Shown: one piece after another, positions 28,404 to 47,165 of the stretch
Position numbering within the stretch: the stretch's first letter is position 1
How the letters are laid out: every line of letters starts with the position of its first letter
From: Novosphingobium decolorationis
GTDB lineage: Bacteria; Pseudomonadota; Alphaproteobacteria; Sphingomonadales; Sphingomonadaceae
Length of the DNA stretch: 64,000 bases
Assembly (NCBI RefSeq): GCF_018417475.1
Contig: NZ_CP054856.1
Coordinates: forward strand, 4,371,001-4,435,000
Direction of reading: 5' to 3'
Program-made: the position numbers and the translations under genes
The notes under the pieces: model-generated
What the model saw: only the letters and a program-made list of their open reading frames with translations
Database searches by the model: none
Told to the model about the DNA's origin: nothing

Positions 28404-31148
28404 ATGAGGGATCTCAAGATGAGTTCAGTTCGCGGCCGGCTCGCCGGCTCCGCCAGTTTCTTCGCTGCTGCCGTTTCGATGGCCGTGCCCGCCTTCGCCC
28501 AGGACGCGCAGTCCGGTGACGAGCAGGGCAACGTCATCATCGTCTCCAGCTCGCGCATCGACGCCGAGGGCTTCGATGCCCCGACCCCGACCGTGCACCT
28601 CGACCAGGGTGCGCTGAGCGTCGGTGGCCGCCCCAATGTGGCCGCCGCTCTCAACGACCTGCCGCAGTTCCGCGCGACCACCTCGCCGCAGACCACCGGC
28701 ACCAACACCAGCGCGGGCCAGGCTCCGGTCGATCTGCGCGGCCTTGGCAACAACCGCACGCTCGTCCTCATGGACGGCCGCCGCTTCTCGAGCGAGAACG
28801 ACCTCAACACCGTTCCCTCGATCATGATCAAGGGCCTCGACGTCGTGACCGGCGGTGCGTCGGCAGCCTGGGGTTCGGGCGCGGTTGCCGGTGTCGTCAA
28901 CATCCAGATCGACAACGAGTTCGAGGGCCTCGTCCTCGGCGGGTCGGCGGGTCTCTCGACGAGCTACGGCGATGACTTCGAGTACCGTTTCGAAGGCAAG
29001 TTCGGCACCTCGTTTGACGGTGGTCGCGGCCACTTCGTGATCGGCGGCGAATACTACGACAGCGACGGCGTGATCCCCAAGGTCGATCGTCCGCGCATCG
29101 GCCGCTGGGCGAACTTCAACGGCGCCGTCACCCCTGACGTGGGCTACGCCAACATGGCCTACGGCGGTCTCATCACTTCGGGCGTCCTGGCAGGCCAGGC
29201 GTTCAACGCCGACGGTTCGCTGCGTCCCTACGATTACGGCTATGCCCAGGGCGGCAACTTCTCGGCGGGCGGCGAAGGCCCCTCGAACGACGACTGGAGC
29301 CCGCTTGTCACTCCGCAGCGCCGTTATTCGGCCCTGGCTTCGCTGACCTACGAGATCACCCCCTCGATCCAGGTCACCGCGCAGGTGCGCCACTCGCGCA
29401 TGTACAACGACTACATCTGGTTCGGCGACAACATCCAGGGCGACGTCCTGGGCGCGAACCCGAACCCGGGCGAAGAGCGCGGCCAGTTCATCTCGGTCGA
29501 CAACGCGTTCCTGTCGCAGGGCATCCGCGACCAGCTGGTCGCCGCAGGCGAGGACGGCTTCTACATGGGCCGCGCGAACCGCGACCTGTCCTACTCGTCG
29601 ATCGATTTCGAGCGCAAGACCACGCAGGCGACGCTCGCTTTCGACGGCACCTTCTCGAACGGTTTCCGCTGGAGTGCATACTACAGCCACGGCGAGTACC
29701 AGAACAACATCGACACCCCCGGCTTCCTGCTGACCGAGAACTTCGCGAACGCGGTTGATGCGGTCCAGGACGGCAACGGCAACATCGTGTGCGCCTCGGG
29801 CGCTCCGGGCTGCGTGCCGGTCAACCTGTTTGGCTACGGCGCGCCCTCGGACGCTGCGATCGACTACGTCACGGGGACGCCTTCGATGCGCTCCAAGACC
29901 AAGCTCGACGTGGGCGGTGTCAGCCTTCGCGGTGAACCGATCTCGCTTCCCGCAGGCGATGTCTCGTTCTCGGTTGGTGGCGAGATCCGTCACGAATCGA
30001 TCAACCAGACGGTGGGCGATCTCGACGCGGCCAACGCCTTCACCACCTTCAGCTTCTCGGCTCTGTCGGGTGGCTACACCGTGAGCGAGGGCTTCGCCGA
30101 AGTCGCGGTTCCGCTGATCTACAACACCCCGCTGCTCCAGCAGCTGAACCTGAATGCGGCAGCGCGCTACTCGCACTACAGCACGACGGGCGGAATCTGG
30201 TCGTGGAAGATCGGTGCGACCAACGAGTTCTTCCCGGGCTTCGTGGGCCGCGTGACGCGTTCGCGTGACATCCGTTCGGCCAACCTGTCCGAGCTCTACA
30301 CGCAGCAGACGACCGGCTACAACACGATCCAGAACCCGTTCCGCACGGACCCCAACACGGGCCGTCCGCTCAGCGAATACGTGCTCTCGAACGGTGGCGG
30401 CAACCCGGACCTGGCACCCGAAAAGGCGAACACCTGGACGGTTGGTGCGACCTACACCCCGCCGGCAGTTCCGGGCCTCAACCTGTCGCTCGACTACTAC
30501 CACATCGACATCGACAACGTGATCGACACGATCGCCTCGCAGGATGTCGTGACGCGTTGCTTCAACGGCAACCAGGCGCTGTGTGACCGTATCGACTTCG
30601 GTGCGAACAACAGCATCCAGCGCACGGTCTCGACCTACGTCAACCTGGCGAACTACAAGACCGACGGCATCGACGGTCAGGTCGACTACAAGCTGCCGAT
30701 CTACAAGCTCGGTTTCGATGGCAACGGCCAGCTGCACTTCAACGTGAAGGGCACCTGGGTCAACAGCCTGACCATCGACGACGGCGAATCGACCATCGAG
30801 TACGTGCGCTCGCAGGGCTACGCCTTCGGTGACGGCGTTCCCAAGTGGCGCGTGAACGCGACCGTGGGTTACGAAAGCGAAGGTATCTCGGGTCTCGTCC
30901 GGGCACGTTACCTTTCGCCGGGCGACTACAACAGCTCGCTCAACATCTCGAACAACCACATCGGGTCGTACACGTACTTCGACGGTCAGCTGAGCTTCAA
31001 CGTGAAGAACGCCAGCGGTCCGGACATGGAAATGTACATCAACGCGAGCAACATCTTCAACAAGAAGCCTCCGTATGGCTCGCTCTACTCCCCGTACTAT
31101 GACGTGATCGGCCGCTTCGTTTCGGTCGGCGCACGCGTCAAGCTGTAA
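28404..31148 (+). CDS. TonB-dependent receptor, candidate peptide importer
   Basis: A 914-residue outer-membrane receptor. The signal peptide ends at AFAQ (about residue 33). The plug has RPNVAAALNDLPQFRATTS, VDLRGLGNNRTLVLMDGRR and the VTGGASAAWGSGAVAGVVNI motif. The long barrel closes with IGRFVSVGARVKL. There is no STN domain, so it is transport only. It stands 235 bases after dgcA and upstream of three exported hydrolases, which suggests it imports peptides. An in-frame ATG at 28419 is an alternative start. Confidence 0.92.
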   Translation: MRDLKMSSVRGRLAGSASFFAAAVSMAVPAFAQDAQSGDEQGNVIIVSSSRIDAEGFDAPTPTVHLDQGALSVGGRPNVAAALNDLPQFRATTSPQTTGTNTSAGQAPVDLRGLGNNRTLVLMDGRRFSSENDLNTVPSIMIKGLDVVTGGASAAWGSGAVAGVVNIQIDNEFEGLVLGGSAGLSTSYGDDFEYRFEGKFGTSFDGGRGHFVIGGEYYDSDGVIPKVDRPRIGRWANFNGAVTPDVGYANMAYGGLITSGVLAGQAFNADGSLRPYDYGYAQGGNFSAGGEGPSNDDWSPLVTPQRRYSALASLTYEITPSIQVTAQVRHSRMYNDYIWFGDNIQGDVLGANPNPGEERGQFISVDNAFLSQGIRDQLVAAGEDGFYMGRANRDLSYSSIDFERKTTQATLAFDGTFSNGFRWSAYYSHGEYQNNIDTPGFLLTENFANAVDAVQDGNGNIVCASGAPGCVPVNLFGYGAPSDAAIDYVTGTPSMRSKTKLDVGGVSLRGEPISLPAGDVSFSVGGEIRHESINQTVGDLDAANAFTTFSFSALSGGYTVSEGFAEVAVPLIYNTPLLQQLNLNAAARYSHYSTTGGIWSWKIGATNEFFPGFVGRVTRSRDIRSANLSELYTQQTTGYNTIQNPFRTDPNTGRPLSEYVLSNGGGNPDLAPEKANTWTVGATYTPPAVPGLNLSLDYYHIDIDNVIDTIASQDVVTRCFNGNQALCDRIDFGANNSIQRTVSTYVNLANYKTDGIDGQVDYKLPIYKLGFDGNGQLHFNVKGTWVNSLTIDDGESTIEYVRSQGYAFGDGVPKWRVNATVGYESEGISGLVRARYLSPGDYNSSLNISNNHIGSYTYFDGQLSFNVKNASGPDMEMYINASNIFNKKPPYGSLYSPYYDVIGRFVSVGARVKL

Positions 31149-31208: not shown

Positions 31209-31325
31209 AGCCCGGGCGGCCGCTTTGCTGCGTTCGCGCTTTGTGAATTTCCCCGTAAAACAGCTTACTACCTGTTCGAAATCCCCCCTCCCGATCCTCC
31301 CCCGAAACTTCCCGAGGAAGCCAAC

Positions 31326-33314
31326 ATGACCACCCGGTTCCTGCGCCGTCTCATTCCCTCCACCGTCAGCAGCCGCGCGCTGGCGATTGCCTTCGCCTCG
31401 TGCGCAGGTCTTGCTGCGCCGCTCGCCGCCGAGGCGGACAAGCCGGCCGCGATCATCACCAAGGACGTGCCTGCGGTGCCCGATGCCGTGGTCAAGGCGA
31501 CCCAGCCCTACCTCGAGGCGCGCCGCGCCGATTTCCTGGGCTGGAACACGGCCGACCATTCGATGCTGATCAAGACGCGCTTTGGCGCGACCAACCAGCT
31601 GCACACCGTGCGCGCCGCCGGTGCCAGCCGCGAACAGGTCAGCTTTGGCCAGGAGCCCGTCCTCACCGGCTCGCTCGCCCCCTCGGACGACAACCTCACG
31701 GTTGTCATGCGCGACACGGGCGGCGATGAATTCTACCAGCTCTACCGCCTTGAGGACGGCCAGCTTGAACTCGTCACCGATGGCAAGAGCCGCAACTGGA
31801 TCGGTGGCTGGAGCCAGGATGGCAAGTGGCTGGGCTACACCTCCTCGCGCCGCAACGGCGCCGACATGGACCTCTACATCGTGGACCCGCGCGACCCTTC
31901 GACCAGCCGCCTGGTTGCCGAGGTCAAGGGCGGCGGCTGGCAGTTCGTCGGCTTCACACCCGATGGCACGAAGGGCATTGCGGTGAACCGCCTCTCGATC
32001 AACGAGGCTATCGTCTACACCGTCGACCTCAAGACCGGCAAGAAGACCGCGCTGACCGATCCCAAGGCCAAGACCTCCTTCGTCGATCCCAAGGTCGCCG
32101 CCGATGGCACCGTCTGGGTGGTGAGCGATGCGGGCGGCAGCGATTTCCTGCAACTGGGCACGCTCGATGTGAAGACCGGCGCCTTCACCGCGAAGACGTC
32201 CGAGGACTGGGACGTCAGCGACTACGCTATCGCACCCGATGGCAACTTCATCGCCTACGCCACCAATGAGGCGGGCGTCAGCGTCATGCACGTCATGGAC
32301 CTGCCCTCGGGCAAGGTGCGCAAGGTGAGCCAGCTTCCGCAGGGCGTCATCCCCTGGGCGATTGGTCCTGCCATCCAGATCGCGCCCTGGGGTGAGATCG
32401 GCTTCTCGCTGTCCTCGGCCAAGGTGCCGGGCGATGCCTTCTCGATCAATCCCGAGACTCTGGACGTCACCCGCTGGACCAAGAGCGAGACCGGCGGACT
32501 TGATGCCAGCCAGAACGTCGAGCCCGAGCTCGTCACTATCAAGAGCTTCGATGGCGAGCCGATCACCGGCTTCCTCTACCGTCCCGATCCGGCCAAGTTC
32601 CCCGGCAAGCGCCCGCTGCTGTTCGACGTCCATGGCGGCCCCGAAGGCCAGTCGCGCCCGGGCTTCCTGGGCTCGGAAAACTATTACGTGAACGAACTGG
32701 GCATGGCGCTGTTCTTCCCGAACGTGCGCGGCTCGGACGGCTTCGGCAAGCGCTTCGTCAACCTCGACAACGGCCCCTGGAAGCGTGAGGACTCGGTCAA
32801 GGATATCGGTGCCTTCTTCGATCACTTCGCAGACGATGCGGCCATCGATGCCTCGCGCATCTCGCTCTACGGCATGAGCTACGGCGGCTATGTCTGCTAC
32901 GCTTCGGCGGTCCACTATTCGGACAAGCTGAAGAGCGCGAGCTGCTATGTCGGCATCACCAACTTCGTGACCTTCCTCGAGAACACGCAGGACTATCGCC
33001 GCGACCTGCGCCGTCCCGAGTACGGCAACGAGACGATCCCCGACCAGCGCAAGAAGCTGGAGGAAATCTCGCCGCTGAACCACCTCGACAAGATCTCGAT
33101 CCCGCTCTTCGTGGCGGTGGGCGGCAACGATCCGCGCGTGCCCGCATCCGAGGGTGAGCAGATCGTCGAGGCCATGGACAAGAGCGGCCAGCCCGCCTGG
33201 TTCCTCAACGCCACCAACGAAGGCCACGGCTTCCACAAGAAGGAGAACGAGGAATACTACTTCCAGACCTCGGTCGAATTCTGGAAGCAGACTCTTCTGG
33301 AAGAAGGCAAGTAA
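31326..33314 (+). CDS. Exported S9-family serine peptidase (prolyl oligopeptidase fold)
   Basis: A 662-residue protein with a signal peptide (about 1-35) and a beta-propeller domain (about 60-400). The C-terminal alpha/beta-hydrolase holds the triad: Ser in GMSYGGYV, Asp in VAVGGNDPRV and His in NEGHGF. S9 enzymes cut short peptides after proline or act as acyl aminopeptidases. The GAGGAAG site upstream of ATG 31326 supports the start; frame upstream to 31194 is leader. It is followed five bases later by the amidohydrolase, so they are cotranscribed. Confidence 0.93.
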   Translation: MTTRFLRRLIPSTVSSRALAIAFASCAGLAAPLAAEADKPAAIITKDVPAVPDAVVKATQPYLEARRADFLGWNTADHSMLIKTRFGATNQLHTVRAAGASREQVSFGQEPVLTGSLAPSDDNLTVVMRDTGGDEFYQLYRLEDGQLELVTDGKSRNWIGGWSQDGKWLGYTSSRRNGADMDLYIVDPRDPSTSRLVAEVKGGGWQFVGFTPDGTKGIAVNRLSINEAIVYTVDLKTGKKTALTDPKAKTSFVDPKVAADGTVWVVSDAGGSDFLQLGTLDVKTGAFTAKTSEDWDVSDYAIAPDGNFIAYATNEAGVSVMHVMDLPSGKVRKVSQLPQGVIPWAIGPAIQIAPWGEIGFSLSSAKVPGDAFSINPETLDVTRWTKSETGGLDASQNVEPELVTIKSFDGEPITGFLYRPDPAKFPGKRPLLFDVHGGPEGQSRPGFLGSENYYVNELGMALFFPNVRGSDGFGKRFVNLDNGPWKREDSVKDIGAFFDHFADDAAIDASRISLYGMSYGGYVCYASAVHYSDKLKSASCYVGITNFVTFLENTQDYRRDLRRPEYGNETIPDQRKKLEEISPLNHLDKISIPLFVAVGGNDPRVPASEGEQIVEAMDKSGQPAWFLNATNEGHGFHKKENEEYYFQTSVEFWKQTLLEEGK

Positions 33315-34433: not shown

Positions 34434-35570
34434 TTGGCGAGCGTTGGGGCAGCCCTTGGCGCTGCGATCTCGGCGCCGGGCCGTGCCGGAGAGGGGGCGC
34501 AGGATGTGCGCGGAGCGGGCGTGCCGATTGGTATCCTGCCCGCAGGGCCGCGCGATGCGATCACTGATGTCGCCGGCGTGTGCGTGGGGCATGTGACCCT
34601 CGAGCAGGGGCGCGACATTCACACCGGCGTAACGGCAATCCTCCCGCACGGTGGTAACCTGTGGCAGGACAAGGTGCCCGCCGGTTTCTTCGTCGCCAAT
34701 GGCTTTGGCAAGTTTGCAGGCTCGACCCAGATCGAGGAACTGGGCGAGATCGAGACGCCCATTCTCCTCACCAATACCCTCTCCGTGCCTGAGGCCATGG
34801 CGGCCAGCGTGGAATGGACGCTGGACCAGCCCGGCAATGAGGAGGTTCGCACCGTCAACGCGGTCGTGGGCGAGACCAACGATGGTTTCCTCAATGATAT
34901 TCGTGGCCGCCATGTCACCATTGCCGATGCCCGCCGTGCTATCGAGACCGCGGGGGAGGGGCCAGTTGCCGAAGGCGCGGTCGGAGCCGGCACGGGCACG
35001 GTGGCCTTTGGCTGGAAAGGCGGCATAGGCACCGCCTCGCGCGAGTTGCCCTTGAGTTTGGGAGGCTGGACGGTCGGCGTTCTGGTCCAGGTCAACTACG
35101 GCGGCGTGCTGAGCGTTGCCGGAACCCCGGTCGGCCAGGAACTTGGCCAGTATCTCTACAAGGACAAGCTGCCCGAGAAGAGCGCGGATGGCTCTGTCGT
35201 CATCGTGATCGCAACCGATGCACCGCTCTCGGATCGCAACTTGCGCCGCCTCGCGGAACGCGCTTTCGTGGGCGTCGCGCGGACAGGCTCGGCTTTCTCC
35301 AACGGATCGGGCGATTATGCCGTGGCGTTCTCCACGGCCATGGACGTGCGCCGTACCGCGCCGCGCCGAAAGGAGCAGGCGGTCTACTCCGAACTCTCGA
35401 ACGATCGCATGACCCCGCTTTTCCAGGCGGTCGCCGAAGCCAGCGAGGAAAGCGTCTACAACGCCCTGTTCGCGGCGCACGATGTTGCCGGCCATCGCGG
35501 AACGATCCGCGCACTGCCGGCGGCGCAAGTGCGCGGCCTCGTCCGGAAGCGCGCACGACTGCAGAACTGA
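34434..35570 (+). CDS. P1-family self-processing aminopeptidase (DmpA/BapA type)
   Basis: About 378 residues from TTG 34434. P1 enzymes cleave their own chain before a serine, then act as aminopeptidases on D-amino acid or beta-amino acid peptides. Here the Gly253-Ser254 site in ADGSVVIVIATDAPLSDRNL matches that position, and VGVARTG and GSGDYAVAFSTAMD follow as in DmpA. The real start may be upstream: the frame extends to CTG 34401/ATT 34404 with an AAGGAAAGG site at 34384-34392. That would add ISYSARALIAL, completing a signal peptide. There is no ATG or GTG in frame. Confidence 0.88.
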   Translation: MASVGAALGAAISAPGRAGEGAQDVRGAGVPIGILPAGPRDAITDVAGVCVGHVTLEQGRDIHTGVTAILPHGGNLWQDKVPAGFFVANGFGKFAGSTQIEELGEIETPILLTNTLSVPEAMAASVEWTLDQPGNEEVRTVNAVVGETNDGFLNDIRGRHVTIADARRAIETAGEGPVAEGAVGAGTGTVAFGWKGGIGTASRELPLSLGGWTVGVLVQVNYGGVLSVAGTPVGQELGQYLYKDKLPEKSADGSVVIVIATDAPLSDRNLRRLAERAFVGVARTGSAFSNGSGDYAVAFSTAMDVRRTAPRRKEQAVYSELSNDRMTPLFQAVAEASEESVYNALFAAHDVAGHRGTIRALPAAQVRGLVRKRARLQN

Positions 35571-35641: not shown

Positions 35642-37126
35642 GTGTTGTGGCCAATGGATGCAATCCTGGCTCTTGTGTGTTTTGGCCTCGTCGTGCTGGG
35701 CATGGTTCCGACAGCTGCGTCCTTTGCGCAGTACCTGCTCGTCGGTTTGCACGGCATCCGCAACCACTATGCGCGCGCGGGATCGGCTACGCCGCGGGTC
35801 GCCTTCCTGCTGCCAGCCTGGAATGAGGCCGATGTCCTGGGAACCAGCATCGACCAACTCATGGCGATCGATTATCCCGCCGGAGCCTGGCGCCTCTACA
35901 TCGTCGATGATGCCAGCACCGACCATACCCCCGAGGTGATGGCGGGCAAGATGGCGCAATATCCCGGCGCGGTGTTCCATCTGCGCCGCGAGAAGGGGGG
36001 GCAGGGCAAGGCCCATACGCTCAATCACGGGATTGCGCAGGTCCTCGCCGACGACTGGGCCGAGGCGGTCATGATCATGGACGCCGATGTCCTGTTCGAG
36101 GCGCAGACCTTGCGGCGGATGGTGCGCCACCTTGCCGATCCCGAGGTGGGCGGGGTCACCGCCTACGTGAAAGAGGGAAGCCAGCCCGGCGGCCTGCTCA
36201 CCCGCTTCATCGGCTTCGAATACGTGACCGCCCAAGCCGCGGCCCGGCGCGCGCAAAACGTCATGGGCGGCCTGGCCTGCATGGCCGGAGGCGCGCAGCT
36301 TCACAGCCGCGCGAACCTGGAAGCCATCGGCGCGGCGATCGACACTTCGACGCTGGCCGAGGACACCTTCACCACCTTCCGTACCGTGCTGGCCGGACGC
36401 CGCGTGCTGCTTGATCCCAACGCCGTGGTCTGGGCCGAGGAGCCCGACAGCGTGGCGGCGCTGTGGAAGCAGCGCCTGCGCTGGTGCCGGGGGAACCTCC
36501 AGATCATGCGCGCCTTTGCGCATATCTGGTTCCGTCCCTGGCGCAACCATCTGCTGGGCGATTGGGCCTTCGGAGTGCTGTGGTTCAGCGTGGCGCTGAT
36601 GCCGGTATTCATGCTGGCCGGGTCGGTGGGGCTGGTCGGCCTGTTCGAACTCTGGCCGAGCTGGGTCCTCATTGCCTTCGAGAGCGTGTGGTTGCTCACG
36701 TTCGTCTCGTTCCTGTTCCAGACCCTGTTCTCCTTCGCAATCGATCCGGCCGAGGCGCGGCGTTCTTGGTTCGAGGGGCTTGCCTTTCCCGGATTGCTTG
36801 CGCTTGGGATCATGGCCATCGCGCTGGTCGCCCCTTTCGCCGACCTCTGCTGGCTCTCCGGCGCGAAGCCGACATTCTGGGGCAACATCCTTGCGCATGT
36901 GATCCTGGGCTGGTCCGCGATCTCGACCTTTGCGGCCTGGGGCATCTATCGATTGGACAAGGCCGGCGCGCCCAAGTGGCTGCGCAACCTGTTGCTGGTG
37001 CTGTTCGGCTATGGCCCGCTGTTGTGCGCGATCACCTTTGCCTCCATCGTGGCCGAACTGAGGAAGGCGGATGCCAAATGGGACAAGACGGTGAAGACGG
37101 GCAAGGTCAAGCTTCCACGGACGTGA
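35642..37126 (+). CDS. Processive-type family 2 glycosyltransferase, membrane bound
   Basis: About 494 residues. An N-terminal membrane helix is followed by a GT-A domain with IVDDAST (UDP-sugar binding), IMDADV (metal-binding DxD), STLAEDTF (catalytic Asp) and the QRLRW motif of processive synthases. Four to five C-terminal transmembrane helices (about 305-460) follow. Layout matches PgaC/YaiP-like synthases that make and translocate beta-linked polysaccharide. GTG 35642, TTG 35645 (best spaced to GGAG) or ATG 35654 may start it. A tiny membrane protein overlaps its stop. Confidence 0.88.
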   Translation: MLWPMDAILALVCFGLVVLGMVPTAASFAQYLLVGLHGIRNHYARAGSATPRVAFLLPAWNEADVLGTSIDQLMAIDYPAGAWRLYIVDDASTDHTPEVMAGKMAQYPGAVFHLRREKGGQGKAHTLNHGIAQVLADDWAEAVMIMDADVLFEAQTLRRMVRHLADPEVGGVTAYVKEGSQPGGLLTRFIGFEYVTAQAAARRAQNVMGGLACMAGGAQLHSRANLEAIGAAIDTSTLAEDTFTTFRTVLAGRRVLLDPNAVVWAEEPDSVAALWKQRLRWCRGNLQIMRAFAHIWFRPWRNHLLGDWAFGVLWFSVALMPVFMLAGSVGLVGLFELWPSWVLIAFESVWLLTFVSFLFQTLFSFAIDPAEARRSWFEGLAFPGLLALGIMAIALVAPFADLCWLSGAKPTFWGNILAHVILGWSAISTFAAWGIYRLDKAGAPKWLRNLLLVLFGYGPLLCAITFASIVAELRKADAKWDKTVKTGKVKLPRT

Positions 37127-37290
37127 CGGGCGACGCGCGGTACCGCGAACTGCTCCGGGGGGATCAGGCCAACGAGCGACGCATCCTTTACAGCGAGATC
37201 GCGATCCTGGCCTTCATCACCCTGCTGGTCGGAGGTTACATTCTCGCGCTCTGGTTCATGACCGACTTCTTTGCATCGCTTCACGTGTGA
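37123..37290 (+). CDS. Small single-span membrane protein coupled to the glycosyltransferase
   Basis: A 55-residue protein starting at GTG 37123, which overlaps the glycosyltransferase stop as GTGA. A charged N-terminal part (ARYRELLRGDQANERRILYSE) precedes one transmembrane helix (IAILAFITLLVGGYILALWF). Small partner proteins of synthases are known (PgaD with PgaC), and the coupling suggests such a role, but there is no clear sequence similarity. An ATG at 37078 would give 70 residues. Its 3' end overlaps the convergent histidine phosphatase gene by 35 bases. Confidence 0.65.
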   Translation: MTGDARYRELLRGDQANERRILYSEIAILAFITLLVGGYILALWFMTDFFASLHV

Positions 37291-37879
37291 GCGGCACGAC
37301 CGCACAGTTTGCAAGGGGCTGCGTGGTTTCATGTTCGCGGTAGGCGCGCATCCAGTCCGGGCTGACCGTAAAATCGGAGGCGAGAGCATGGAGGTAGCCG
37401 CGGAAGAACTGGCCATGGCCGACGACGAGCGCGAAACCGACGTCGAGGGCAAGGAGGCGGGCGTGAAAGTCCCTCAGCCGCTCCAGAAAGGCGCGGAAGC
37501 TTTCCGCATCCGGCCCGTCGCGATAGTCGGGATCGCAGCGCTCCCAATAGGCCGCCACGAGGGGGCGGCGCGTCTCGCCCGTCGTGCCGTGACAGCGGGC
37601 GGGGCTGAGGTAGGTCAGTTCGCCGATCGGCCAGGTTTCGCAAGGAACAGCGGGCCAACGCGCCCGGATCGGGGCGGCGGTTTCCTCGGCCCGGCGGAAG
37701 GGTGAGACAACGATGCGATCCGGAGCGCGCTCCACCCGCATGGCAAGCTCGCGCGCCTGGGCATGGCCGAGAGGCGTGAGCGGCACCTCGGCGTGCCCCT
37801 CGACCGGCTGTCCGGCATTGGACGCGCTCTGGCCATGGCGGATGAGCCAGGTCAGCTGCGGGGGCACAAGGCTTCCCAC
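37256..37879 (-). CDS. Histidine phosphatase superfamily protein
   Basis: A 207-residue protein with the phospho-His motif LIRHGQSASN (His15), the basic pocket in VVSPFRRAEETA (about residue 58) and the second catalytic His in VVGHGQFFRG (about residue 153). Members act on phosphosugars, phosphoproteins or small phosphates. It overlaps the upstream ATP-grasp gene by 28 bases, so the two are co-translated and probably in one pathway. It is the last gene of the minus-strand glycan cluster. Confidence 0.87.
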   Translation of the reverse strand: MGSLVPPQLTWLIRHGQSASNAGQPVEGHAEVPLTPLGHAQARELAMRVERAPDRIVVSPFRRAEETAAPIRARWPAVPCETWPIGELTYLSPARCHGTTGETRRPLVAAYWERCDPDYRDGPDAESFRAFLERLRDFHARLLALDVGFALVVGHGQFFRGYLHALASDFTVSPDWMRAYREHETTQPLANCAVVPLTREAMQRSRS

Positions 37880-38823
37880 TGCGCGGTGTCGAAGTACTCT
37901 TCGGTCCAGTAGCGCACGACCATCAGGTCCTGGAACGGCATGGGCCCTTCCGGCAGCTTCCCGCCTTCCAGCCCGGTGACCATAAGCTTTGGCATGTCAA
38001 CTCCCGCCGCAGCGGTCAGCGGCAGGGTCCCGGGATAGCGCGGGTTCACTTCGAGCAGCTTGTAGACGCCATCCTGCGCGCGCTTGAACTGGATGTTGGC
38101 CGTGCCGCGAATGCCGATCACTTCGGCCGTGCGCCGGACCGCCGCCAGCAGCGGCTCGTCGTGGATCGTGCGCGAGGCGACCGCGATACCGGAATCGATC
38201 TTCATGCGCACGCGCGCAACCGCTGCGATCACCCGGCCATCGGCGCGTACGTAGACATCGACCGAGACTTCCTCGCAGGGCAGATATTCCTGCAGCATGA
38301 CCGTCCCGTCCAGCGGCTGCGCGGCAAGATCCTCGGTGCCATCGATCCGCGCGATCCCGCGCGAGCCGGCACCCTCGCGCGGTTTGGCAAAGCGTGGAAA
38401 ATGTGTGGTAGCTGCCGCGATCTCGGGTGTCAGCGGGACGCTTGAGGGGCAGGGGACCTCGCCCTCGACCGCGTCCATCAGGGCCTGCTTGTCGCGGCAC
38501 AGGCGCAAGGTTTCCACAGGTGATATCGCCATCGTCGTGCCCACCTGCGCGAACCGGGTACGCTCGGCGGCGAGCGGAGCCAGTTCGACGTCAACGGTGG
38601 GCACGAGCAGCTCGATTGCGCGCGCACGGCACGCCTCGAGCAGGTCCGGCACCAGCGCGGGGGAATCGCCGCGCGCGATGATGAGGCGCCGCTCGGGCGG
38701 CACCAGATAGAGCCCCGCGGCCAGCGGATCGATGTCCGCCATGTAGAGTTCGTGATCGCCCCCAAGGCTCTTCCAGATACTGACGGCGGCCGCGCCTCCG
38801 GCTCCGGTGACAAGTATGCGCAT
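37852..38823 (-). CDS. ATP-grasp ligase (carbamoyl-phosphate-synthase-like)
   Basis: A 323-residue enzyme. An N-terminal pre-ATP-grasp Rossmann domain (MRILVTGAGGAAAVSIWKSL) is followed by an ATP-grasp core with FAKPREGAGSRGIARI (ATP lysine and Gly loop), the LQEYLPCEEVSVDVYV strand, and metal ligands in GTANIQFKRAQDGVYKLLEVNPRYPG. Such ligases form acyl-phosphate intermediates and join a carboxylate to an amine or similar. The substrate is unknown. Flanked by a deacetylase and a phosphatase, it may decorate a sugar with an amino acid. Confidence 0.85.
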   Translation of the reverse strand: MRILVTGAGGAAAVSIWKSLGGDHELYMADIDPLAAGLYLVPPERRLIIARGDSPALVPDLLEACRARAIELLVPTVDVELAPLAAERTRFAQVGTTMAISPVETLRLCRDKQALMDAVEGEVPCPSSVPLTPEIAAATTHFPRFAKPREGAGSRGIARIDGTEDLAAQPLDGTVMLQEYLPCEEVSVDVYVRADGRVIAAVARVRMKIDSGIAVASRTIHDEPLLAAVRRTAEVIGIRGTANIQFKRAQDGVYKLLEVNPRYPGTLPLTAAAGVDMPKLMVTGLEGGKLPEGPMPFQDLMVVRYWTEEYFDTAQWEALCPRS

Positions 38824-38829
38824 GTTCTC

Positions 38830-39936
38830 TCAGTTCCCCTCGATATCGCTTTGGGCGGCCAGTGCGTCATCGCGCAGCGGGTAGGTCGCCTGGACCATGT
38901 CGCGCTCACGCACGACCTGGAACGGCTCGGCCAGGACGTAGCCCGCGAAACGTCCCCAGTAGTGCGCCGAAGACAGAATCACGTCGGGCTGGATCGAGAC
39001 CATCCGGTCGATCTGGCTCTTGTAGGCGCCGATGAGCCCGATCTTCTTCTCGATGAAACTGGTGATGTCGACATAGCGCTGGGGCTCGAACCTGGTGGTC
39101 GAGGACGGGCTCTGGTAGCAGTAGACATTGGGTACCGCGCGCGCGGCGACGAGGCTGGCGGTATGGACGGCGCGGTGGTCCTGGTGGGTGTCCTCGATCG
39201 TGTGGGTGTAGACGTGGGTCGCGCCCATCTGGGCGATCGCATCCTGGATGATGGCGATGGTCTCCCCGCCCGGTTCGATCGCGGTGTCGGGCAGGTTCTC
39301 GATGCGCAGCCGCGCGCCGAGCATGGCGGCGGCATCGTGCGCTTCGGACAGGCGCAGGTTGGTGTCTCCTCCGGCCGCCCCGCGCGAAAGGGTGAGGATG
39401 CGGATGACGTCGTAGTCGGCAAAATGACGCGCGAGCGCGCCGCCGCAGCCGATCTCCACGTCATCGGGATGCGCCCCGATGGCGAGCACACGCTTTTGCT
39501 GGCGCTGGCGGCGGGCGTTGGCCTCGCGCGCCAAGAGCATGACTTCCTCGACGAAGGCCTCGGGGCCGGAGGGGCGCAGGATGAGGCCATCGACGTGGCA
39601 CCTCAGCGCCTCGCGCAGGAGGCGGGGCTTCTCGCTCTGCATGACGATCAGCGTGGCCGTCCAGCGGTAGTTGTACTTGATGTACTTGAGGAGGGCGAAC
39701 CCGCCGGGCGTGCGGTCCGGTTCGGCCGCGACGAGATCGTAGGGGCGCGTCGCGACAAGATGCATCGCCGCATCACTGTCGCGGGCAAGCTCAAGCGCGA
39801 CGTCGGGGAGGGGCTCGAAGGCGCGTCGGACCACCTCGGCAGTGTCAGGGAAGGGCGTGACGACAAGGATGTGCAAGCGCCTTGCAGGGACGTGCTGAAC
39901 GACACCCAGACGGCGATTTTGCGCGGCTTGTTGCAT
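38830..39936 (-). CDS. PIG-L family deacetylase fused to a degenerate receiver domain
   Basis: A 368-residue protein. The N-terminal part (about 20-130) has the receiver fold, but key residues are gone: Val-Val-Thr-Pro in place of the acidic pair, Glu72 at the phospho-acceptor and Arg121 for the lysine. The C-terminal part is a zinc LmbE/PIG-L deacetylase with IGAHPDDVEIGCGG (about 153-166) and DTHQDHRAVH, which removes N-acetyl groups from GlcNAc-type sugars. ATG 39936 has AAGGGGAG eight bases upstream. GTG 39978 overlaps the preceding stop and is the alternative. Confidence 0.85.
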   Translation of the reverse strand: MQQAAQNRRLGVVQHVPARRLHILVVTPFPDTAEVVRRAFEPLPDVALELARDSDAAMHLVATRPYDLVAAEPDRTPGGFALLKYIKYNYRWTATLIVMQSEKPRLLREALRCHVDGLILRPSGPEAFVEEVMLLAREANARRQRQQKRVLAIGAHPDDVEIGCGGALARHFADYDVIRILTLSRGAAGGDTNLRLSEAHDAAAMLGARLRIENLPDTAIEPGGETIAIIQDAIAQMGATHVYTHTIEDTHQDHRAVHTASLVAARAVPNVYCYQSPSSTTRFEPQRYVDITSFIEKKIGLIGAYKSQIDRMVSIQPDVILSSAHYWGRFAGYVLAEPFQVVRERDMVQATYPLRDDALAAQSDIEGN

Positions 39937-39974
39937 TGGCGTAGCTCTCCCCTTCTTCACCAGGCGCCCTTTTT

Positions 39975-41276
39975 TCACCAGGCCATGCGCAGGCCCGCTC
40001 TCAGGCTCTGCGCCGAACTGTACGAATTGTGGCTGGCGGCAAGACGCAGCGCCACGTGGCCCGAAATGGCCACCAGGGCACTGAGGTGCAGGTCGCGGTT
40101 GTCGATGGCCGGAGAGACGCCGACGCCGGCGCTCAGCACCAACTCGTGCGGCCCTGCATAGGTGATGTCGAGCGCGCCGCTCCAGAGGCTGCGGTAATCC
40201 TCGAAGGCCGCCTGCTGCGAGTTGTAGAGCGTTGCCGTCAGTTGCCAGCGCGGTGCGACGTCCACGCCCAGCCCCGTGCGCAGCAGGCGTCCGTCGTAGA
40301 GCGCATCGCCGAACGACTTGCGATAGCCCCCGCTCCAGCGCACCCGGTCGGTGAGGTAGATCGTCACGCTGCCATCGATCCAGTGCTCGGTCGGCAGCGC
40401 GCCGTGTCCGCGGTAGTCATAGACCACCGAAATCGCATAGCCGAGCGGGACGAGGCGCTGGTAGCCCAGCGTGACATCGTCGCGCGGGAATATGGTGAGG
40501 CCGTTGGCCGACACGGTCGCGATATCCGCGCTGGCATGGCTCCATCCCAGTTCGAGTGTGTCGAAGGCGCCCAGCGCCGCGGTCCCGTGCAGCTGCACAC
40601 CGTGCGATGAGGTTTCGGGGGTGGAGGCGATGATGCCGCCCATTTCCAGTGTATAGTGATGGACATCGCCGATCATGGCGAGACCGGCCCGGGCCTCGGC
40701 GTTGCCGGGCTCGGTGCGCAGGACCTCTTCGAAGCCTTGCTGCGCGCGGCGCGGGCGATGGCGGGCGAGAGCCAGCCAGGACAGCCCGTTGCGGGCGTCG
40801 ATGTCGGCAGGGTCCTGCTCCAGCAGCTGCCGGTAAAGCGTTTCGGCCTCGTGCAGATGGTTTTGCCGACGGGCGACCCGGGCCAGTCCGAGGCGGGCGG
40901 GCCGCAGCGCCGGCTCACGCGCGAGGAGGTTCGTGTAGATAGCGCGCGCCTCGTCGGGATGTGCAGCTTCCAGCGTAACGCCAAGTTCGAGCGCGGGATT
41001 GGTTTCGGCCGGGGCCATCTGCACTGCCCGGCGCAGATGGGCGATGGCTGTATCCTGTTCGCCGTCCTCACGGGCAAGGACGCCCAGAAAAAGAGAGACG
41101 CGGTAGTCGGTTGCGCCCGTGGCCTCGCACGTGTGGAGGGACTTTCGGAGCTTCGACAGCGGACGCGGGGTCATGCCGAACATCCGCTGGATTTCCTCGA
41201 TATCGCATGCCCCGTCCTGCGCGGCCGCAGGGGGCGGCAAGAGAATCAGGGTCACTGCCATGAAGACCCCCGGCAT
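39975..41276 (-). CDS. YaiO-like outer-membrane protein: TPR domain plus beta-barrel
   Basis: A 433-residue protein with a signal peptide (MPGVFMAVTLILLPPPAAAQ). A periplasmic TPR region (about 50-215: FLGVLAREDGEQDTAIAHLRRAV, YRQLLEQDPADIDARNGL) is followed by a C-terminal barrel of alternating aromatic strands ending in SLRAGLRMAW. This two-part plan matches YaiO and PgaA-type exporters that guide polysaccharide across the outer membrane. The frame opens at TTG 41369, but ATG 41276 makes a proper signal peptide. It heads the minus-strand operon, with TGA overlapping a possible GTG of the deacetylase. Confidence 0.82.
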   Translation of the reverse strand: MPGVFMAVTLILLPPPAAAQDGACDIEEIQRMFGMTPRPLSKLRKSLHTCEATGATDYRVSLFLGVLAREDGEQDTAIAHLRRAVQMAPAETNPALELGVTLEAAHPDEARAIYTNLLAREPALRPARLGLARVARRQNHLHEAETLYRQLLEQDPADIDARNGLSWLALARHRPRRAQQGFEEVLRTEPGNAEARAGLAMIGDVHHYTLEMGGIIASTPETSSHGVQLHGTAALGAFDTLELGWSHASADIATVSANGLTIFPRDDVTLGYQRLVPLGYAISVVYDYRGHGALPTEHWIDGSVTIYLTDRVRWSGGYRKSFGDALYDGRLLRTGLGVDVAPRWQLTATLYNSQQAAFEDYRSLWSGALDITYAGPHELVLSAGVGVSPAIDNRDLHLSALVAISGHVALRLAASHNSYSSAQSLRAGLRMAW

Positions 41277-41379
41277 GGATGGATACAGCAGTGCCCGGTT
41301 TCGCGCTCGCAAGGGCCGCACCTTACGTCGATCCCGTAATGCATTCAGGAATATCCATTGTGCCACCAAGGCTTGGGGG

Positions 41380-41637
41380 CGGCAATGAACTCCTTGGTTG
41401 GTTTATGTAAACGAGGAAAGTGTTTGTCTTTATTGGAATTTTTCGAAATAATATGCGAAATATCTGTTCGATATATATTTTTTGTTATTCATTAAATTTG
41501 TGAAATATTGAGAGCCGAGCCTGGTGATTGTCAATTTGTGTCGTGCGCTTCGACATGTTTGTGTTACGTCACTTGAACGGGAAACAATCGTTTTGATTGA
41601 ATGCCATCGCATGTTGCAGCGGCCCTGGGAGGGATCG
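41380..41637. promoter_or_regulatory. AT-rich divergent control region
   Basis: About 260 bases between the divergent YaiO-like operon and the exported protein at 41638 hold no gene. Bases 41429-41515 are markedly A/T-rich, with repeated TTCGAAATA / GCGAAATAT / TTCGATATAT elements. This suggests promoters for both directions and binding of a nucleoid protein or AT-preferring repressor such as MucR. No single -10/-35 pair is certain. Confidence 0.5.
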
Positions 41638-42378
41638 ATGACGGCAAAATCATATACATCTTTGTGCTGGGCGCTGCCCCTTCTGCTGGTGGCTCCGGCC
41701 GCTCTTGCGCAGGACACGCCACGCGAATTGCGCGATCTCGTGGGCGCGCGGGCGGCAGGAGGTGAGCGGCAGCTTGAAGATCGTGGCTTTGTCTGGATAT
41801 CGACCCAGACCGGCAGCGACCGTAAGTGGAGCTACTGGTGGCGCCAGTCCGATGCGCTGTGCATCACGGTCCAGACCTACGATGGGCGCTACGCCTCGGT
41901 CGTGGATTCGCCAGCCGTCGATTGCGAGCGCGCTCAGGGGGGCGATCACGAGACCAGCGCACAGATCGACGAGGTCATCAATCTCATCTGCTACGGCGAA
42001 GGCAGCCGCCTCTCCAACCGCGTCAGCACGGGCTACGAATGGGACTGGAGGGAACATCGCTACCATCGCTCGACCCGCTCGGAGTTGACCCAGCAGCAGT
42101 TCGACGAGGCGATCACCTTGCAGTTCCATGGCTCCGACGGGCGCATCCGCCTTGCCGGTAAACTGGTTCCACCGATCCATTCGGGGGGCACCAACGGATG
42201 GTGGACACTGACCGACGTTGCGATCACCCACGACAAGATCAAGGGCCGCTATCGCCTCAACGGCCTCAACAAGCCCAAGCTGGAGATCGATCGGCTGACC
42301 GGCCACATCAAGGTCGAGGGCATGAACAGCTTCAGCGGCACGTGCGACAGCATCGACAGCGGGAAGCGGCGGTTCTGA
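41638..42378 (+). CDS. Exported protein of unknown function
   Basis: A 246-residue protein with a clear signal peptide (residues 1-24, cleavage after AALAQ). The N-terminal mature part has a compact Trp/Tyr/Cys-rich module (RQLEDRGFVWISTQTGSDRKWSYWWRQSDALCITVQTYDGRYASVVD, about residues 44-90), with Cys residues likely forming a disulfide. A second, beta-rich part contains GWWTLTDVAI and RLTGHIKVEGMNSFSGTC. The family is not recognised. GGGAGGG lies a few bases upstream of ATG 41638. Its stop overlaps the next start by one base (TGATG). Confidence 0.7.
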   Translation: MTAKSYTSLCWALPLLLVAPAALAQDTPRELRDLVGARAAGGERQLEDRGFVWISTQTGSDRKWSYWWRQSDALCITVQTYDGRYASVVDSPAVDCERAQGGDHETSAQIDEVINLICYGEGSRLSNRVSTGYEWDWREHRYHRSTRSELTQQQFDEAITLQFHGSDGRIRLAGKLVPPIHSGGTNGWWTLTDVAITHDKIKGRYRLNGLNKPKLEIDRLTGHIKVEGMNSFSGTCDSIDSGKRRF

Positions 42379-43133
42379 TGCCGGGGCGGACCGGCACACG
42401 GACAGCGCGCGCCATGACGGTGGCCGGCGGACTTCTGGCGCTGGCGTTCCTGTCCGCCTGTTCCGGGGATGCGGTCCAGGACGAGGCCACGCAGGACGCG
42501 GTGGAACAGCCCACACTTGCGCCTGAGACGGAGCCGCTTGCCGACGGCGCCCCAGCAGCCTTCGCCTGGCCAGCTTCGCTCAAGGTCATGGGCACAGGCT
42601 ATCCGGAAGAAGGTGATGCCTGCCGCCGCCTTGGCGAGAGCGCGGCCGTGGTCGATTATCTCGACGACAGCGCCATGCTTGTCGGTTGTCCGGGAGAGGC
42701 CAGCTCGGGAGCCGCGCAAGCGCTCGTCTCCGCGAGTTCGGCCCAGTCGGTCGGGCATATTGACGGCGTCAGCCTGTTCTCGGTTCCCGCCACCCCGGTT
42801 GCCGCTCCAAGTACGGCACCGGTGCGACCGGGAACCCAATTCAAGGGCCGACTGACCGGAAACGACATCGCCCGGCACGACTTTTCAGCGCGCGAGGGCC
42901 AGACGATCAACGTCACGCTCAAGGGCTCGGGCTCGATGTATTTCAACGTGCTGCCACCCGGAGGTCAGCCGGGCGATGCAATCTACGTGGGGTCGCGCGT
43001 CATCGAGCGGGCCAATTTCTGGTCCGGCGTCGCGCCGGCCACCGGAACCTACACCGTAATCGTCTACCTCATGGGAAATGACAGGGATGGCGGTGCGAGC
43101 CGCAGCTACGAACTCGAGGCAATCGCCGAATAA
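42378..43133 (+). CDS. Predicted lipoprotein with C-terminal beta domain
   Basis: A 251-residue protein with a lipobox, LAFLSACSGD (Cys about residue 28), so it is lipid-anchored. A cysteine-containing middle portion is followed by a C-terminal domain (about 145-250) with GTQFKGRLTGNDIARHDFSAREGQTINVTLKGSGSMYFNV and NFWSGVAPATGTYTVIVYLM. That is reminiscent of pre-peptidase C-terminal (PPC-like) beta-sandwich modules. Function is unknown. ATG 42378 is coupled to the preceding gene's stop, so the two are expressed together. Confidence 0.7.
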   Translation: MPGRTGTRTARAMTVAGGLLALAFLSACSGDAVQDEATQDAVEQPTLAPETEPLADGAPAAFAWPASLKVMGTGYPEEGDACRRLGESAAVVDYLDDSAMLVGCPGEASSGAAQALVSASSAQSVGHIDGVSLFSVPATPVAAPSTAPVRPGTQFKGRLTGNDIARHDFSAREGQTINVTLKGSGSMYFNVLPPGGQPGDAIYVGSRVIERANFWSGVAPATGTYTVIVYLMGNDRDGGASRSYELEAIAE

Positions 43134-43203
43134 CGCGGTTTCCAAAGCAGCGCGGGACCATCTGCGCGACGATATCGAGTGACATGAAACGAAAGTGGCA
43201 ACG

Positions 43204-43548
43204 ATGATTCTCAAAGCCGTTTTCAGGAGTACACTGGCTCTGGCCGTGATTTCCATGGGGGCTGCGTCCCTGCCAGCCTCGGCTGAACTGACCCGCGAAC
43301 AGGAAACGCGCCTCAAGGCGGCCGTCGCCGGGATCGTCATCGCCAATGCCATCCGCAAGGCCAAGAAGAAGCGCGACCGCGAGCGCGAATGGGAGCGGTA
43401 CGAACGCGATGGCCGCACCTACTACAACTACGACTGGGGCCGCAGCTTCAGCCCGCACAAGGACGTGGTCTGCTACCAGCGGACGCGGCAGTGCTTCAAG
43501 GATCGGCGCTATTCGTCGAAGTGGACCGCACGCGCGTTCGGGTATTGA
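43204..43548 (+). CDS. Small exported basic protein of unknown function
   Basis: A 114-residue protein with a signal peptide (ending ASLPASA). Next comes a hydrophobic, alanine-rich helix (RLKAAVAGIVIANAIRKAKKKRDRERE) that runs into a charged stretch. The C-terminal part is rich in Tyr and Arg (YYNYDWGRSFSPHKDVVCYQRTRQCFKDRRYSSKW) with two cysteines. The family is not recognised. GTG 43195 is an upstream alternative start. It lies in a run of exported proteins. Confidence 0.62.
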   Translation: MILKAVFRSTLALAVISMGAASLPASAELTREQETRLKAAVAGIVIANAIRKAKKKRDREREWERYERDGRTYYNYDWGRSFSPHKDVVCYQRTRQCFKDRRYSSKWTARAFGY

Positions 43549-44990: not shown

Positions 44991-45047
44991 CACGAAGGCG
45001 AACGGGCCTTGTTCCAGCCGCCCGGTTTCGAGCGAGGGAGGACAGAA

Positions 45048-47165
45048 ATGAGCATTCCGCAGGAAAAATCGGCCGCGAGATCGCGGCTCTCCCGGCCCCG
45101 TTCCGCAGCCGCGCTGTGCGCTCTGACCATTCTGGGAACGCTCGCAGGGGGGCTTGAGGCGGGGGCGGATGCGCCCGCCAGCGCCGGAGCCGACGAACTC
45201 GCCTTCTCCGTGGAGAATATGGATCCCGGCGTAAGTCCGCGTGAAGACTTCTATCGCTTTGCCGCGGGCGGTTGGCTCACCCGTGTGCCGCGCCCCGAGG
45301 ATCGCGCTTCCTACAGCTTTCCGGTAATTCAAGGGAAGATCATAAACGACCAGCTGCAGACCTTGGTCGATAGTGCGGTAAATTCGGCAGTGAGTGCCCC
45401 GAGAGGCAGTTCGCGCCAGTTGGTGGGGGACTTCTACAAGGCATACATGAACCTCGAGCATCGCCGCGCGCAGGGCATGGCGCCGCTTGTACAGGAGTTT
45501 GCAAGGATCGATGGCCTCTCCTCCAAGGAGGACCTGACCGGATTCCTCGTCGATGAAGCGAAAACGAACGGTCTCAGCCTGCTCGTCGGCTTCGGCCCAT
45601 CGCCGGACCTGTCGGACAGTTCGCGTTACGCCATCTTCGGCGCCACCGGGTCGACGGCGCTCAAGGAGGAGCGCGATGTCTACCGGGCCGAAGACAGCGC
45701 TCCGCGGCGGCTTGCCTACCGCGCCTATGTCCATGACCTGCTGCAGGTTGCCGGATATGAGGAGAGCGAAGCCGCGCGGGTGACAGCGCTGGTGCTCGAT
45801 CTCGAAACCGAACTCGACAAGGCCAAGTTGACGCGCGCGCAAGCCCGGGACTTCAATCGTCTCAATAATCGGATGACGCTGGCACAGGCGCAAGCTCTGA
45901 TCCCCCGGGTCGACATCGCCGCCTACCTGGCCGCTATGGGTATTCCCGCGCCGGAGGAGATCATCGTCACCGAACCGGCCTATTTCAGGGCCGTTTCCGC
46001 GATCATCGACAGCCGGCCGTTGGGGGATTTCAAGGACTATACGAAGTTTCGCGTGATCGAGCAGTTCAGCGGCCTTCTTTCCCCTGCATTCGATGAACCC
46101 AAGCGGGCGCTGAATCAGGCTTTCACCGGGGTGGCGACCTTGCGTCCCATTGACGAGCGCGCGATCGCTGAAATTCAAGGATCGCTGGGGCAGCCATTCA
46201 GCCAACTCTATGTCGAGACCTATTATGACGAGGACACGCGTCGCCGAACCCTGGAACTGATATCCTACATCATGGCTGCGATGGAACGGCGCATTCCAAC
46301 GCGTACCTGGCTCTCGCCCGAGACCAAGGCTGAAGCGATGGCCAAGCTCAAGGCCTTCGAAAACAAGGTCGGGTATCCCGAGCAGTGGATCGACTATTCG
46401 GGAGTGACGATCGTTCCCGATGATCCCGTTGCCAATGCAAGGGCGATCATGGCCTTCGCCCTGGAACGCGAGCTTTCCAAATTGGGCGGGCCCGTCCGCA
46501 ACGATGACTTCAACCAGAAGAGCACGCTGCCAATTGCGATGAACGCGGCCTATGCCTTCTTCGACAATGGCTTCCAGATCACGGCTGCGATCTCGCAGGC
46601 GCCGGCCTTCGAGCCGAACGCGGACCCGGCGGTGCGTTTCTGTCGTTTCGGGGCCATCATCGGCCATGAGACGACCCACGGCTTCGACAGCATCGGACGG
46701 CAATTCGATGCGAAGGGCAACCTGCGCGACTGGTGGACGAAGGCCGATGCAGCGGCCTTCACAACCGAGGCGCAAAAGCTGATCGACCAGACGTCCAGCA
46801 CCCCGCTGGCTCCCGGACATGCCAATGACGGCACCTTGTGGGTCGGTGAGAACATGGCCGATGTCGGAGGAATCAAGCTCGCCTACACGGCGCTGATGGA
46901 TTACCTCAAGGCTCATCCCGACGAGGACCGCAAGATCGACGGCTACTCGCAAGCCCAGCGTTGTTTCATCGCCTGGACCCAGATGTGGGCGGAAAACGCC
47001 ACCACCGAGTACCTGATCAACATCGCCGAGAGCGGAGACCATCCTCCCAGCCTGTACCGCACGGTTGCGCCCTTGCAGCATTTTGACGCCTGGTACGCCG
47101 CATTCGGCATTCGCGAAGGTGATCCAATGTGGCTCGCCCCTGAAAAGAGGGTGAATACATGGTGA
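45048..47165 (+). CDS. M13 (neprilysin-type) zinc metallopeptidase, exported
   Basis: A 705-residue protein with an N-terminal signal or anchor helix (AAALCALTILGTLAGGLEAGA). The catalytic HExxH is GHETTHGFDS (His540, Glu541, His544), with third ligand Glu in VGENMADVGGIKLAY. NAAYAFFDN matches the substrate-binding NAxY region, and the N-terminal M13 lobe begins at NMDPGVSPREDFYRFAAGGW. It cleaves small peptides in the periplasm or at the surface. ATG 45048 has a GAGGACAG site. Upstream frame to 45009 is excluded. Confidence 0.93.
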   Translation: MSIPQEKSAARSRLSRPRSAAALCALTILGTLAGGLEAGADAPASAGADELAFSVENMDPGVSPREDFYRFAAGGWLTRVPRPEDRASYSFPVIQGKIINDQLQTLVDSAVNSAVSAPRGSSRQLVGDFYKAYMNLEHRRAQGMAPLVQEFARIDGLSSKEDLTGFLVDEAKTNGLSLLVGFGPSPDLSDSSRYAIFGATGSTALKEERDVYRAEDSAPRRLAYRAYVHDLLQVAGYEESEAARVTALVLDLETELDKAKLTRAQARDFNRLNNRMTLAQAQALIPRVDIAAYLAAMGIPAPEEIIVTEPAYFRAVSAIIDSRPLGDFKDYTKFRVIEQFSGLLSPAFDEPKRALNQAFTGVATLRPIDERAIAEIQGSLGQPFSQLYVETYYDEDTRRRTLELISYIMAAMERRIPTRTWLSPETKAEAMAKLKAFENKVGYPEQWIDYSGVTIVPDDPVANARAIMAFALERELSKLGGPVRNDDFNQKSTLPIAMNAAYAFFDNGFQITAAISQAPAFEPNADPAVRFCRFGAIIGHETTHGFDSIGRQFDAKGNLRDWWTKADAAAFTTEAQKLIDQTSSTPLAPGHANDGTLWVGENMADVGGIKLAYTALMDYLKAHPDEDRKIDGYSQAQRCFIAWTQMWAENATTEYLINIAESGDHPPSLYRTVAPLQHFDAWYAAFGIREGDPMWLAPEKRVNTW

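Follow-up and report, generated by a model that had tools for sequence, protein, structure and literature searches.

Six adjoining genes of Novosphingobium decolorationis raise the question of whether they form one pathway and, if they do, what that pathway makes. They lie at positions 35642 to 41276 of a stretch of 64,000 nucleotides (contig NZ_CP054856.1, positions 4,371,001 to 4,435,000), hereafter the window, in which a plus-strand family 2 glycosyltransferase (GT2) with a small membrane protein is faced by a four-gene minus-strand block encoding a tetratricopeptide repeat (TPR)/beta-barrel outer-membrane protein, a PIG-L deacetylase, an ATP-grasp enzyme and a histidine phosphatase. An earlier note, made from the sequence alone, took them for one set that makes, modifies and exports an N-acetylglucosamine (GlcNAc)-type polymer. 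An open reading frame (ORF) check of the window found all six where the note had placed them, on the strands it had given, and the six-gene cluster is confirmed, more strongly than was then claimed. The interpretation is partly supported: its outline holds, its YaiO part is wrong, and control and chemistry were incompletely covered. A receiver domain on the deacetylase with its link to kinases, the replacement of the phosphatase by another and the presence of the set in Actinobacteria had all been missed. The answer to which we incline, with somewhat more confidence than doubt, is that the genes belong to a conserved system for the synthesis, modification and export of a surface glycan, in most relatives of which the PIG-L step is switched by a signal.

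That the six genes are one set is supported by their co-location in distant phyla and by a common phylogenetic profile. Bacterial and archaeal species genomes were scanned with an alignment of the PIG-L protein, and the best 80 of more than 80 loci were analysed: 42 'core' loci, taken as relatives of the receiver-joined PIG-L (REC-PIG-L), and 38 other PIG-L loci, which served as the control set. The core loci were picked by hand, for a match reaching into the receiver or an identity above ~40%, a rule that is not mechanical (L084, matching from residue 93 at 27%, was left in the control set), and incomplete loci (L020, L039, L043, L045, L046 and those at contig ends) were kept in all counts. 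Related sets were thus seen in Actinobacteria as well as in alpha-, beta- and gammaproteobacteria. With the score limits fixed, the core loci hold the ATP-grasp enzyme in 37 cases, GT2 in 32, a PHP phosphatase in 27, the barrel protein in nine and the histidine phosphatase in seven, whereas the control loci hold ATP-grasp in three and none of the other four; weaker GT2 matches occur in control loci L047, L050 and L073. Ten core loci lack a full GT2: L010 has a cut piece, L008, L012, L019 and L020 have the gene elsewhere in the genome, and no GT2 was found at E 1e-40 in the genomes of L028, L039, L043, L045 and L046. Gene order varies by lineage. The genes run in one direction in L007 and L009 and are rearranged in two betaproteobacterial loci, L011 and L063; in L015 (Microbacterium) REC-PIG-L is followed by ATP-grasp, PHP, GT2, the small ORF, what by eye is a single receiver, and the kinase. 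When the open frames of 45 loci were compared all against all, the 40 largest groups included the cluster families, the kinase, PHP and a single-receiver frame (11 loci); the remaining groups seemed to reflect antisense frames, common families or the synteny of near relatives.

Another test, not seeded by the deacetylase, covered the actinobacterial family to which G352 belongs (a genome titled Microbacterium oxydans, from which L015 comes). With close relatives not down-weighted, the same 17 of 199 genomes carry GT2, ATP-grasp and PHP, and REC-PIG-L is present in 32, all 17 included (G550, one of the other 15, matches in the receiver only). As to whether the genes are scattered, coordinates place the four together in 14 of the 17 genomes; the other three (G414, G484 and G537) have all four, with GT2 displaced and PIG-L, ATP-grasp and PHP still adjacent. 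Because related loci are co-located and the profiles match, the cluster is more than a product of chance. A chance neighbourhood without functional link is scarcely credible: its sole point is that the flanks, as tested, carry peptidases and a TonB receptor, and we consider it refuted for GT2, ATP-grasp, phosphatase and PIG-L by the co-location across phyla, set against the control loci, and by the matching profiles.

At E 1e-35, REC-PIG-L was found only in the window's own genome among 289 genomes of its class, and among 61 related genomes (its own included) the full protein, with a match covering the receiver, was likewise confined to it. A large protein collection holds many relatives; the 119 listed apart from the window's own cluster have identities of 55-72%. 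Since no other genome in these two samples gave such a match while the collection lists many relatives, we call the set patchy in distribution, perhaps passed between lineages. Spread on plasmids was considered and dropped; the plasmid search with REC-PIG-L gave two records, both covering the PIG-L part only. A related, wider enzyme set appears in three other loci: L047:9998-16527 combines a plain PIG-L with GT2, ATP-grasp, a UDP-GlcNAc 2-epimerase and a HAD-type phosphatase, L050:9998-14841 has the same genes without the HAD gene in the part examined, and L052:117-2560, on a haloarchaeal contig, keeps PIG-L, HAD and ATP-grasp together.

The putative control element lies in the deacetylase gene (minus strand, 38830..39936). 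Its ORF opens at 39978 and has 382 codons; an in-frame ATG at 39936 is the start that agrees with the nearest homologues. Residues ~37-146 are a degenerate receiver and ~163-358 the PIG-L domain, with AHPDD and HQDH motifs. In Pfam, PIG-L is the sole enzyme family above cut-off (72 bits), no polysaccharide deacetylase match being listed, and Response_reg matches residues 37-146 at 20 bits, below its cut-off of 30.2. Among solved structures, a profile built from 24 relatives finds deacetylases of the BshB type as well as receivers of the CheY type. The AHPDD and HxDH-type motifs, which have a functional role in PIG-L enzymes, are invariant in 24 sequences. The five canonical receiver positions (an acidic pair, which we take to be the first and second residues of a DDD stretch, as in CheY, the phospho-acceptor Asp, Thr/Ser and Lys) are intact in 33 of the 42 loci; the window receiver has T, P, E, M and R there, so that all five are changed.

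Of 32 loci with an intact receiver, 31 have a kinase match within 6.5 kb, against one of seven with a degenerate receiver (Fisher p 1.5e-5, uncorrected for relatedness; L008, L010 and L028 were left out for too little flank). Intact-receiver loci are mostly actinobacterial, and the kinase link thus partly reflects one phylum; in the control set the kinase probes match four of 38 loci, whatever the distance, which is not a matched control for nearness. In most relatives, then, the deacetylase has the look of a functional response regulator with a kinase gene at its side, and the modification step would be under the direct control of a signal. The kinase matches of the window are at ~13.3-14.0 kb and 52.5-53.2 kb. 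Because the key receiver residues are changed and these kinases are distant, phosphorylation control has probably been lost in this genome, where the receiver would be a relic unable to take phosphate in the normal way. The Glu at the phospho-acceptor site was considered as a phosphomimetic and rejected: the conserved Thr and Lys, to which one report ties such a Glu as a possibility (PMC12632262), are both lost in the window receiver.

Two further arrangements of REC-PIG-L were noted. In Marinicella (L014:12-2224) a haem-NO-binding (HNOB) gene and a hybrid kinase are divergent from an intact REC-PIG-L, making a nitric-oxide input possible. In L043:5777-9360 and L045:9920-13538 REC-PIG-L is accompanied by a kinase and by what look to the eye like receiver genes, the synthase genes being absent, and there the protein may act on another target. 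Such loci, and 14 genomes of the actinobacterial family that have the receiver and PIG-L parts without the other three genes (plus G550, with its receiver matches only), are what one would expect of two loosely joined modules, one of kinase and REC-PIG-L with its own target and the other a separate, often adjoining glycan module of GT2, small protein, ATP-grasp, phosphatase and barrel. We find this very improbable, however, as REC-PIG-L is carried by 17 of the 17 glycan-gene genomes, and it is PIG-L, ATP-grasp and PHP that stay together where GT2 is displaced. In the literature searched (titles and abstract starts, and few subscription papers), neither a PIG-L/LmbE output domain nor the six-gene cluster is described. 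No paper in the same search brought ATP-grasp together with LmbE, or with both PIG-L and a response regulator. None combined PIG-L with a response regulator, a kinase and a glycosyltransferase, and in none did four or more of PIG-L, ATP-grasp, glycosyltransferase, histidine phosphatase and exopolysaccharide occur together. PMC9487997 and PMC5660220 do mention a receiver domain and a response regulator along with LmbE.

On the synthesis side, the GT2 gene (plus strand, 35642..37126, 494 codons) encodes a membrane-embedded protein with the Pfam family Glyco_tranf_2_3 (103 bits), the motifs VDDAS, MDADV, AEDT and QRLRW, and a predicted fold like that of PgaC, hyaluronan synthase and BcsA. Its model aligns over 340-379 residues, membrane part included, with PcManGT (the top match), hyaluronan synthase and cellulose synthase BcsA at 14-22% identity. 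The QxxRW motif and the modelled fold agree with channel-forming synthases. The earlier description as a processive-type GT2 is therefore supported as regards the predicted fold, while processivity itself is our inference. Overlapping the GT2 stop with its GTG start is a 55-codon ORF (plus strand, 37123..37290) with one hydrophobic segment and no Pfam family above cut-off, a probable partner of the synthase. Its proposed role as a membrane partner gains from recurrence: a small ORF (38-95 codons, with a transmembrane-grade segment) begins at the stop codon of GT2 or close to it in 40 of 58 rows, or 37 of 51 distinct GT2 genes, in contrast to none of 53 distinct ATP-grasp genes, none of 56 for PIG-L, two of 38 for PHP and none of six for the histidine phosphatase. 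The 14 GT2 genes without it include those apart from the cluster (L102-L105) and those of the Legionella loci L013 and L017, whose C-terminal tail resembles the small protein by eye, so that the two seem to be fused there; nor does a small transmembrane ORF follow the displaced GT2 of G414, G484 and G537. Directly upstream of the cluster GT2 of Legionella drozanskii stands a GH81 family gene (L017:995-3145), a hint of a beta-1,3-linked glucan in that organism.

One rival reading of the product is a plain exopolysaccharide of the poly-N-acetylglucosamine type, for which ATP-grasp and phosphatase would supply precursor and the deacetylase would merely make the polymer cationic. PgaC_IcaA is indeed the best NCBIfam model for the GT2, and a PgaC profile matches it at 27% over 237 columns. 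However, the score of 125.4 bits is far under the PgaC cut-off of 422.3, the ATP-grasp and phosphatase genes go with the set as closely as GT2 does (the same 17 of 199 genomes), and the deacetylase is a PIG-L protein predicted to be cytosolic. We therefore consider such a product improbable.

For export, the barrel gene (minus strand, 39975..41276; its ORF can open at 41369) encodes 433 residues with TPR above the Pfam cut-off and, by inspection, a signal peptide. The predicted model has a TPR superhelix of 11 helices followed by a 16-strand barrel (DSSP), two of the strands short, and its best and fourth Foldseek matches are BcsC and PelB (12% and 15% identity). The model thus supports both the TPR/barrel description in the earlier note and an exopolysaccharide-exporter architecture, through which the product may be exported across the outer membrane. 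Kinship with YaiO did not survive: BLASTP gave no meaningful match and hhalign a probability of 0.3%. Against PgaA, a profile comparison reached 7.7% probability, in the TPR part only, and PgaA is absent among the Foldseek matches listed.

The remaining two genes bear on the possible chemistry. The branch 1 histidine phosphatase (minus strand, 37256..37879; His_Phos_1, 89 bits; RHG and GHGQF motifs) has phosphoglycerate mutase, CobC and glucosyl-3-phosphoglycerate phosphatase among its solved relatives. It belongs to the proteobacterial loci, and elsewhere the non-homologous PHP enzyme takes its place: of 42 loci, seven have the histidine phosphatase, 27 PHP, eight neither and none both. Both phosphatases keep their characteristic motifs (in 8 and 14 sequences), and the more distant L047 and L052 have the HAD-type gene beside PIG-L and ATP-grasp. 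That unrelated phosphatases occupy one place suggests a real phosphorylated intermediate. Among the loci with neither, the genome of L013 (Legionella rowbothamii) carries a histidine phosphatase on a separate contig, with 56% identity to the cluster copy of L. drozanskii, and L039, L043, L045 and L046 are also without this clade's GT2. L012 and L028 are contigs of metagenome-assembled genomes ending inside the cluster; the L028 genome gave no PHP match, the histidine phosphatase not having been searched there. In the genomes of L012 and of Marinicella (L014) these searches found no relative of either phosphatase, and the Marinicella case speaks against a strict need for the phosphatase step in the pathway that we propose.

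The ATP-grasp enzyme (minus strand, 37852..38823; ATPgrasp_Ter, 98 bits; PylC-like N-domain) has K147, E258 and N260 in common with all of the 21 sequences compared, that of the window among them; we take these for residues that bind nucleotide and metal. Its solved relatives range from carbamoyl-phosphate synthase, D-Ala ligases, L-amino acid ligase and PylC to carboxylases, and amide formation would be a plausible activity. Hydropathy and inspection gave no signal peptide or membrane segment for PIG-L, ATP-grasp or phosphatase; all three presumably act in the cytosol, and modification is therefore expected there, before or during synthesis. On this point the parallel with pga drawn in the earlier note fails.

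Taken together, our favoured scheme would run as follows. The GT2 and its one-helix partner would build a glycan, presumably of an amino sugar such as GlcNAc, and move it across the inner membrane. PIG-L, an enzyme whose family is clear and whose cytosolic location and substrate are conjectural, would take N-acetyl groups off the precursor or nascent chain; the ATP-grasp enzyme might join a carboxylate, e.g. an amino acid, to the freed amine, and the phosphatase, judging from its replacement by an unrelated one, would strip phosphate from an intermediate. In Gram-negatives the TPR-barrel protein, by its predicted architecture, would carry the product through the outer membrane. The product would thus be a glycan of amino sugars whose freed amines carry an amide-linked group.

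The same enzymes might instead make a small glycoside or glycolipid: N-acetylhexosamine would be transferred onto a phosphorylated acceptor, the phosphate removed, the amine freed by PIG-L and an amino acid ligated by ATP-grasp. The enzyme set fits the logic of mycothiol synthesis step for step. Moreover, PIG-L matches, below cut-off in each case, the models for BshB1, Mca and MshB, and PcManGT is the top fold match of the GT2. Of the wider sets, L052 has HAD phosphatase, PIG-L and ATP-grasp with no GT2 relative found in the locus as covered, which reaches 164 bases to the left of PIG-L, and in L047 they come with GT2 and the epimerase. Nevertheless, we consider a small product and its mycothiol-like order unlikely in view of the membrane-embedded GT2 with its recurrent one-helix neighbour, the alignment of its membrane part with hyaluronan and cellulose synthases, and the BcsC/PelB-like TPR-barrel that accompanies it in Gram-negatives. 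A bolder form of the surface-glycan scheme, tentative and rather doubtful, is that a response regulator with a glycan de-N-acetylase output switches, at the level of the enzyme, an undescribed cross-phylum pathway that frees amines on a sugar and then, by the ATP-grasp ligase, attaches a carboxylate to them in amide linkage, to give an aminoacylated surface glycan, the switch having decayed and the enzyme having become constitutive in the window lineage.

As to the surroundings, Pfam places a TonB-dependent receptor and S9, S58 and M13 peptidases at the flanks (window 28404-31148, 31302-33314, 34434-35570 and 45009-47165), and a CAAX-type protease is also among the flanking genes tested; the cluster looks as if set into a peptide-use region. 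Three ORFs in the adjoining 41524-43548 have no Pfam match at E 0.001. With 66.6% GC against 64.7% for the window, the cluster does not stand out in base composition.

If our scheme is right, orphan annotations (PIG-L, ATP-grasp, histidine/PHP phosphatase, GT2, small transmembrane protein, TPR-barrel) are joined into one system of Gram-negative and Gram-positive bacteria. It predicts new surface glycan chemistry and a two-component switch acting on a biosynthetic enzyme instead of transcription. Unrelated phosphatases in one role, intact versus decayed receivers and the presence or absence of the exporter form a natural comparison set. A receiver joined directly to a glycan enzyme has a precedent in a fusion to a BcsA-like glycosyltransferase, reported from the one family Methanobacteriaceae (PMC5847659); here the output is a PIG-L de-N-acetylase, and several phyla are involved instead of one family.

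Among known systems, PgaABCD resembles the window cluster in its GT2 synthase, deacetylase and protein of TPR and barrel, and in a small membrane protein that is here a putative partner of the synthase. It differs in that PgaB, a CE4-family deacetylase, is here replaced by a cytosolic-type PIG-L with a receiver, in that ATP-grasp and phosphatase are added, and in the size of the partner (137 codons in PgaD, 55 residues with one segment here). YaiO/YaiP/YaiS of Escherichia coli likewise has GT2 and PIG-L relatives in one cluster. The proposed kinship holds at the weak, superfamily level of 25% (YaiP) and 34% (YaiS) identity, which may make these two distant cousins; YaiO, however, is unrelated in sequence to the window barrel protein, and the 14-kb annotated stretch around the yai genes names no ATP-grasp or histidine phosphatase gene. 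BcsC and PelB share the order of TPR superhelix and barrel, whereas the window protein is short, with few TPR; with PcManGT, hyaluronan synthase and BcsA the GT2 would have its fold in common. Mycothiol and bacillithiol synthesis use a glycosyltransferase, a phosphatase, a PIG-L deacetylase and an amino-acid ligase as a set; unlike them, the window cluster has a membrane synthase with a partner, an exporter and a ligase of the ATP-grasp type. By analogy, then, the modification side recalls mycothiol synthesis and the export side the Bcs, Pga and Pel systems, and we regard the cluster as a variant of synthase-dependent glycan export new to the literature searched.

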